Part shown: piece after piece, positions 23,663 to 25,289 of the stretch | How the letters are laid out: each line of letters begins with the position of its first letter | Position numbering within the stretch: position 1 is the first letter of the stretch | From: a virus | Length of the DNA: 64,000 nucleotides | Direction: 5' to 3' (one strand) | Virus record (IMG/VR): IMGVR_UViG_3300036770_003093 | Location: 54,244-118,243 of that record | Program-made: the position numbers and the translations under genes | The notes under the pieces: model-generated | What the model saw: the letters and a program-made list of their open reading frames with translations, nothing else | Databases searched by the model: none | What the model was told of the DNA's origin: nothing

Positions 23663-23731
23663 GGTTGGTAAACCGTAAGCTTCCAAATTTTTCTTTAAGG
23701 TTGATAAACCTTGACAAGCATGTGGGGCAAC

Positions 23732-23801
23732 GACACCATTCTATCTATTACTGCAAGTAAAATAGATAGTATCAAACACTTTTGCAGAGTGTAATGGTAT
23801 C
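23732..23801 (+). ncRNA. 70-nt predicted three-way junction
   Basis: An 8-of-9 closing helix GACACCATT / AATGGTATC encloses two perfect hairpins: CTATCTAT...ATAGATAG with an inner TACT-GCA-AGTA, and ACACT-TTTGCAG-AGTGT. tRNA-sized, but with two arms instead of three. Confidence 0.6.
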
Positions 23802-23914
23802 ATATGAGATATAATCTCTATGATTTAGCGTTTGTGCAGACTTAAAAATCATGCAGTTATAAGCAACTTGATATGTTGTGGAAGTTACATAACTTTAAAA
23901 GCAAAATGCTTATC

Positions 23915-24478: not shown

Positions 24479-24609
24479 ACGAATCAGAGTTAACTTGAAC
24501 AAACGATAGTTCTCAGATTGATGATGTTTCTTTTATCAACCGTGCGGGGCAGTAATCCTCGCCGCAACTAGTAAGACTAACCAATAATGTCTTACAAAAC
24601 AATCTCAAA

Positions 24610-24686
24610 GCCAGCACTAAGAAACTCGGCGGTCTTATGACCAATGTTTCCTTGCAACTAGAAATAGTGTGCTAAATAGTGCTGGC
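24610..24686 (+). ncRNA. 77-nt RNA closed by a 10-bp helix
   Basis: GCCAGCACTA (24610-24619) pairs exactly with TAGTGCTGGC (24677-24686). Inside are GAAAC...GTTTC, which encloses GGTC-TTAT-GACC, and CTA-GAAA-TAG. Together they make a three-way junction like that at 23732. It has no T-loop, so it is not a normal tRNA. It lies in a 640-nt gap (24436-25076) with no gene that I can support. Confidence 0.6.
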
Positions 24687-24694
24687 TTCATCTT

Positions 24695-24890
24695 TCTCTC
24701 TTCACTAACTTTAGGGTGAATAGTTGTAATCTTCAGGCAATGTAAGTAAACTACCTAAATAGCCATAACGGAAGTGCTTAAGAGCTTTCTGTTGTGTTGA
24801 TGGACAATATGTTCTTTTAGCTTTAGAAGAGATTATAACTAAGTGTTGAGAAAATCTCTCTTCACTAACCGCAAGGTGAACAGTTGTGAT
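24695..24890 (+). repeat. 36-nt direct repeat heading RNA elements A and B
   Basis: Copies at 24695-24730 and 24855-24890, 160 bp apart, share TCTCTCTTCACTAAC, then five variable nt, GGTGAA, and AGTTGT. The variable bases lie in the loop of a TTCAC/GTGAA hairpin, so structure is conserved while sequence changes. Confidence 0.8.
24721..24841 (+). ncRNA. Tandem RNA element A (about 121 nt)
   Basis: TAGTTGTAATC (24721-24731) pairs with GATTATAACTA (24831-24841), 11 bp with one wobble. A GGACA-ATA-TGTTC hairpin lies inside. It is preceded by the 36-nt motif (24695-24730) that also precedes element B and overlaps the closing helix. Confidence 0.55.
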
Positions 24891-24995
24891 AGACAGGATT
24901 TTGTACAATCCTGACCACTGGTATAATTAAATAGTTTTGTAGTATGCCTCTACCATAAGGAAGGCTATAAAATGTTCATTATTCTATCACAACTG
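24881..24995 (+). ncRNA. Tandem RNA element B (115 nt)
   Basis: A perfect 13-bp closing helix, CAGTTGTGATAGA (24881-24893) with TCTATCACAACTG (24983-24995). Inside are the perfect hairpin CAGGATT-TTGTAC-AATCCTG (24894-24913) and a GCC/GGC hairpin near 24946-24965. CTCTTCAC upstream can further pair with GTGCAGAG downstream (7 of 8). Paralogous to element A by its 5' motif and 3' AGTG. Confidence 0.65.
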
Positions 24996-25076
24996 AGTGC
25001 AGAGGGGTAAAAAACTTAATAACTTCCAAAGTTGTTGAGAACACAAGTTTTTCTTTAAAACATAAATAAAATAGAC

Positions 25077-25289
25077 ATGAAAGTTATAGCAACTATTCCT
25101 TCTTTTGATAAGAATAAGTCTTATTCTGACGTAGTAAAGTCTAAGCATATTCCTGTTTATCCTAATCAATGTCCTTGCCACTATGGGTATGAATGCGATG
25201 ATCCTAATTTTGATTATAGCAAACCTATAGGCTACATAGAAGTAGATAAGAACGATGAAAGAAACAGTGTTTTAGACACAGATACCTGA
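25077..25289 (+). CDS. Small cysteine-containing hypothetical protein
   Basis: 70 aa. The centre PNQCPCHYGYECDD has three Cys and a His close together, possibly a small metal site. The start ATG follows an A-rich leader (ATAAATAAAATAGAC) directly after the RNA region. No family recognised. Confidence 0.65.
   Translation: MKVIATIPSFDKNKSYSDVVKSKHIPVYPNQCPCHYGYECDDPNFDYSKPIGYIEVDKNDERNSVLDTDT

Follow-up and report, generated by a model that had tools for sequence, protein, structure and literature searches.

Tandem structured RNA elements of a phage genome belong to a widespread family with twister-like members

The window, a stretch of 64,000 nucleotides, comes from an IMG/VR record of 118 kb. 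Its phage portal, terminase, capsid and polymerase proteins match PHROGs, and the capsid protein is distantly similar to those of Leptolyngbya phage Lbo-JY46 (28.8% identity), phage csAssE-Sib and Cellulophaga phages. ARAGORN detected no tRNA or tmRNA in the window, and neither GOLLD RNA nor an Rfam twister was found in the record. Several RNA features lie upstream of a gene at 25077 (Table 1). The first of these is a hatchet ribozyme (RF02678), about 840 nt upstream of the tandem elements described below; hatchets also occur in the element-carrying loci L001, L019, L022 and L047, although their fold and sequence are unrelated to those of the elements. The noncoding segment that follows the hatchet is almost invariant in L001 and L017, gave no Rfam match at E≤5, and contains a stretch resembling a tRNA anticodon arm (CAGACTGGTAATCTG, then TTGAATCCCA); it is possibly another structured RNA. 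The next module is 97% identical in L002, where it ends just before type I elements, and is partly conserved (82–100%) in L001, L004, L017, L060, L106, L178 and others. An inverted repeat that is absent from L002 stands between this module and the first of the tandem elements.

A single nucleotide separates the tandem elements, A and B. They contain a direct repeat, which a preliminary description had reported as a 36-nt motif recurring after 160 bp; the repeat is real and extends over 43 nt. The closing helices of 11–13 bp around about 90–100 nt that were claimed there were also found, the one in B being perfect as stated. That description had bounded the elements by motif and long helix, which are indeed present, and had missed two further parts, one a short hairpin and the other an outer helix in which the sequence 5' of the motif pairs with AGTGYNGAG immediately 3' of the long helix. 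With these, each element forms a three-way junction, and the conserved unit, outer helix included, measures about 153–161 nt. The MFE structure of B is exactly this junction of outer helix/P2, P4 and P5 (z = -6.06, with 0 of 200 dinucleotide shuffles folding as well). For A the MFE z-score is -2.54 (1 of 200 shuffles as good), and in the copy folded alone a competing hairpin of the TTCACY/GTGAA type displaces the outer helix. The + strand carries no ORF of at least 60 aa across A and B, in keeping with the non-coding RNAs that had been proposed; the sole overlapping ORF is a 65-aa TTG ORF on the opposite strand. Paired substitutions in relatives, named beforehand as decisive for the structured reading, were found as well, the long helix changing on both sides with pairing retained. 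The segment directly 3' of B, where the scan called no terminator, is 83–93% identical in more than 12 other loci, and in L001 and L004 a similar segment likewise lies directly 3' of an element.

Table 1 Features upstream of the gene at 25077 (positions within the window)
Feature	Position	Strand	Description
Hatchet ribozyme	23691-23854		66.4 bits, above gathering score
Noncoding segment	23855-24215		~360 nt, directly 3' of the hatchet
RNA-like module	24480-24607
Inverted repeat	24608-24688		Perfect, 12 bp, AAGCCAGCACTA/TAGTGCTGGCTT, 57 nt apart
Direct repeat	24695-24737 and 24855-24897		43 nt, 79% identical, spacing 160 bp
Element A, type I	24693-24853	+	Type I model R1 and fold
A, outer helix/P2	24693-24706 with 24842-24853	+	TTTCTC..TT-CACT with AGTG-TT-GAGAAA
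A, P4 hairpin	about 24708-24717	+	Short loop, TTAG-like
A, P5 helix	24721-24732 with 24830-24841		TAGTTGTAATCT with AGATTATAACTA; 12 bp, one G-U; P5 insert 97 nt
Element B, type I	24855-25007	+	Models R1 and R2 and fold
B, outer helix/P2	24855-24866 with 24996-25007	+	TCTCTC-TT-CACT with AGTG-CA-GAGGGG
B, P4 hairpin	24868-24877	+	ACC-GCAA-GGT, loop GCAA
B, P5 helix	24881-24893 with 24983-24995		CAGTTGTGATAGA with its exact complement; 13 bp; P5 insert 89 nt
Hairpin, then T-rich run	25008-25056	+	AAAAACTTAATAACTTCCAAAGTTGTTGAGAACACAAGTTTTTC; directly 3' of B; candidate 3' end/terminator of the RNA unit

Relatives of A and B were sought in IMG/VR with a pattern drawn from the shared 5' part, which matched first L001 and L002 and then about 20 contigs. 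In all but a few chance matches, a 3' signature (ACAACTGAGTGCAGAG or a near variant) followed 50–200 nt downstream. Scanning IMG/VR for this signature gave at least 120 matches, as did a scan for TAATGCACCA-N6-10-TTCCCAAGG. Among 20 large records (88–127 kb), 19 carried one to three copies, located within about 1.1 kb of each other except for a two-mismatch match in G011 that is likely due to chance. The elements lie between genes (no ORF of at least 80 aa overlaps 139 of the 148), and the next gene downstream shares their strand in 118 of 124 cases. tRNAs are rarely adjacent and not regularly so. Searches against Rfam returned no match at gathering score and none that was relevant at E≤5–10. 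These elements form a widespread phage RNA family that is absent from Rfam and missed by its models. A covariance model (R1) built from 13 type I elements of other contigs, with the window, L001 and L002 left out, recovered both B (69.9 bits, E 6.3e-13) and A (40.9 bits, E 2.4e-6). No element match was found among the isolated phages of INPHARED, including Lbo-JY46, the closest isolate by capsid protein, and one contig among the cellular genomes of GTDB matched the element pattern. A search through the neighbouring 355-aa protein yielded no relatives in IMG/VR. As for other RNA features of the group, tmRNA genes and a group I intron are present in its phage contigs (L003:5468-5866 (-), L166:69-403 (-) and L020:3483-3698).

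Three architectures can be distinguished within this family. Type I, to which both window copies belong, reads [CYCUU]-UGCAC-U-A-ACC..GGGU-GAG-CAGUUGUAAUA..insert..UAUUACAACUG-A-GUGCA-GAGRG. Type II reads [P1]-UAA-UGCAC-CA-nn-[P4 5 bp]-UUCCCAAGG-[P4']-CAGUUGUAAUA..insert..UAUUACAACUG-A-GUGCA-GA-GGG-[P1']. Type III follows the layout of type II and has two further conserved hairpins, GUGGAUAUAAAGACUUC..AAGAUGUGAAACCAC and CUGAUUAA..UUAAUCAG, immediately 5' of CUCCCAAGG within the P4 loop. P5 of types II and III is large and variable, mostly 40–200 nt. The 181 unique P5 inserts comprised 115 singletons, with the rest falling into 27 clusters, some of which display internal paired changes of their own and are common to several element types. 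Four clusters contain homologous inserts from type I and from types II/III, and the types thus have parts in common, through either descent or recombination. What had been described as loop bases differing between A and B is this P5 insert, of a kind exchanged among different elements of the family.

Twisters are among the fastest small self-cleaving ribozymes, and their biological roles are largely obscure. A likeness of types II and III to twister, first suggested by the env22 sequence, was then tested by pairing register, covariation and model searches. Types II and III have the parts of a twister (RF03160 twister-P1; P3 and P5 types): P1, a UAA step, P2, an L4 CCCAAG loop, a T1 pseudoknot with GGG, GA between P2' and GGG, and P1'. 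The order is the same in the Rfam consensus (ccuuUAAcgCc ... GUCCCAAGCC ... gGcgGAGGGaagg). Across 28 type II sequences, 92.7% of the cells of the full structure were paired, with 127 changes on both sides of a pair, against 41 in shuffles and 16–32 in slid registers. Compensatory changes were present in P1, P4 and P5 of types II/III; P4, for instance, occurs as CUCAC/GUGAG, UCUAC/GUAGA, CCUGA/UCAGG, UCAGC/GCUGA, CUAGC/GCUAG and CUAUC/GAUAG. P1, whose strands flank UAA on its 5' side and GAGGG on its 3' side, is supported in the twister register alone (z 9.2 for pairs, 13.0 for run), with no signal in shifted registers other than same-register slides; individual P1 helices are often only 3–6 bp long, and 67% of P1 cells pair. 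UAA precedes P2 in 118 of 120 type II/III elements, a count to be read with the fact that one of the two search patterns demanded TAA and the other, anchored at the 3' end, did not.

T1, which joins UUCCC of L4 (UUCCCAAGG) to the 3' GAGGG, is supported although it lies outside the nested structure: the middle pair is C-G in 69 unique elements and A-U in 5, with 0 mismatches; the flanking pairs each show one compensatory case, giving seven compensatory cases in all. For T2 (L4 with L2), one candidate pair is C-G in 73 cases, U-G in 1 and U-A in 1, with no mismatch and a single double change. Rfam twister models matched none of types I–III even at E≤10, and we therefore call types II and III a divergent twister variant rather than members of RF03160. 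Judging from these pairings, types II and III, to which most of the family belongs, look like a divergent form of the twister ribozyme, for which cleavage is predicted. Canonical-type twister-P1 ribozymes were also detected near elements in L001 and L085 and elsewhere in the L135 record (48–52 bits, E about 1e-11).

The variant departs from known twisters in several respects. Published twisters have optional P3 and P5, two pseudoknots and a U-A cleavage site, and P5 is present in about 1% of those annotated (PMC6154101). Types II and III, by comparison, have no P3 and always a long P5; the candidate T2 has CA/GG instead of GCC/GCC; and type III has its two conserved hairpins inserted in L4. 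The type I copies of the window are without UAA, L4 and T1. In both A and B, CTCTCTT stands ahead of P2 where the UAA step between P1 and P2 is missing, and the L4 CCCAAG loop and the T1 pseudoknot are gone, the GAGRG tail pairing upstream. P2, P5 and the 3' tail are kept. Pairing of the type I tail with the upstream strand reached z 3.5 over 20 type I elements, and the outer helix displays modest covariation, with both-side changes in 3 of 13 pairs in a type of which there are few elements. An attempt to read type I as a twister, with CACUAAC supplying the UAA, was rejected, since no GAGGG/P1' order fits. As for xrRNA-like, antiterminator, pistol and group I RNAs, which were considered as leads, none of their defining features was recognised.

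Since P5 inserts are common to several types, type I is best read as twister scaffolds dead for catalysis. We propose, with a probability of roughly 60%, that A and B belong, in tandem, to a phage RNA family with a twister ancestor, in which types II and III cut themselves and type I is a retired scaffold with a structural role. We infer that type I derived from types II/III rather than the reverse, and loss of catalysis with the scaffold retained is the simplest account of the window copies. According to this proposal, a type II/III RNA would fold as P1-UAA-P2-P4(L4 UUCCCAAGG)-P5-P2'-GA-GGG-P1' and would self-cleave at the U-A step of UAA; the 3' product would start with a 5'-OH and have a compact fold with a pseudoknot. 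Type I is without the cleavage site and the L4 loop. Its freed GAGRG tail pairs with the upstream CUCUY, turning P1 and P2 into one near-continuous helix, and a short loop caps P4. The resulting three-way junction is predicted to be stable, to be unable to cleave and to hold out a long P5 arm. In A and B it would most likely act within the untranslated stretch of the transcript, as protection or as a spacer.

An unlikely alternative is that type I is a structural RNA of separate origin, perhaps one that stabilises mRNA, binds a protein or mediates antitermination, whose P2 and P5 arms were recombined from twister-like neighbours. P5 inserts do move between elements, and recombination of P5 arms could mimic descent. 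Type I also has a conserved core of its own (CACUAACC..GGGUGAG), and twister-like elements lie side by side with type I in L001, L010, L013 and L043. However, the resemblance goes beyond P5, with P2 (UGCAC/GUGCA), the GAGRG tail and the 3' strand GGGUGAG also common at the sequence level. The type II model (R2), moreover, scores type I elements significantly, element B with 20.1 bits (E 0.004) and others with E 7e-9 to 0.09, and L103 and L126 carry elements in which UAA is kept and L4 is absent.

The preliminary description had proposed two related non-coding RNAs, to be sought as discrete species of 115–125 nt; read as free-standing small RNAs, these would act in trans. Its recognition of related, structured paralogues stands; the wider family, the pseudoknot and the twister anatomy were not part of it, and no ribozyme was suspected. 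Strong folds, the tandem arrangement of paralogues and the conserved hairpin with a T-run just 3' of B are what independent small RNAs might display. We nevertheless consider them improbable, as the promoter/terminator scan found no promoter per copy beyond chance and no discrete end for either, and the copies abut within conserved units that include the outer helix and exceed the proposed length. Least probable is a DNA-level mobile repeat or recombination site whose palindromes only resemble an RNA fold: phages exchange modules and the elements lie between genes, but compensatory changes, G-U pairs, a pseudoknot with conserved single-stranded loops matching the ribozyme core and the orientation fixed relative to the downstream gene all speak against it.

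The placement of the presumably active relatives of A and B may hint at a role for types II and III. The 40 nt before the UAA of type II elements fold more stably (MFE -7.1) than sequence upstream (-4.4) or downstream (-4.6; p 6e-9), and type II elements tend to lie just 3' of a hairpin. In L060 (4367-4842), L098 and L115, the large phage RNA GOLLD (RF02032), itself a separate RNA, is located directly upstream of type II, whose predicted cleavage site falls 10–13 nt after the conserved GOLLD 3' end; these GOLLD matches (84–101 bits, E 1e-24 to 1e-29) are under the gathering score of 150. In L008, GOLLD lies about 600 nt upstream of a type I element. A ribozyme-made 3' end of GOLLD is possible in those three contigs.

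This is reminiscent of theta ribozymes, HDV-like ribozymes of gut phages that stand beside phage tRNAs in positions suited to trimming the 3' end of a neighbouring RNA (PMC10879173). Both are phage-encoded and placed where they could trim a 3' end; theta ribozymes differ in their HDV fold and tRNA adjacency, the family described here being twister-like and rarely next to tRNAs. The type II sites beside hairpins and GOLLD suggest that these elements may trim the RNAs next to them, much as theta ribozymes do. For A and B, our guess from position and structure is a structural role between the hatchet ribozyme and the gene at 25077, protecting or spacing the transcript.

More tentatively, we postulate that aquatic phages possess a modular RNA toolkit in which a P5-bearing divergent twister may serve as an exchangeable chassis. 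P5 would be a cargo slot shuffled between catalytic types II/III and retired type I, active copies would be positioned to excise adjacent RNAs, among them the 3' end of the giant GOLLD RNA, and the window copies would be dead ribozymes kept for their structure. A large family of phage RNAs, built differently from known twisters and sometimes joined directly to the 3' end of GOLLD, offers a concrete and testable role for twisters in the processing of RNA 3' ends or mRNA 5' ends. If true, the members that keep the scaffold and lack catalysis would represent a rare natural case of a ribozyme that was retired and reused as a structural RNA.
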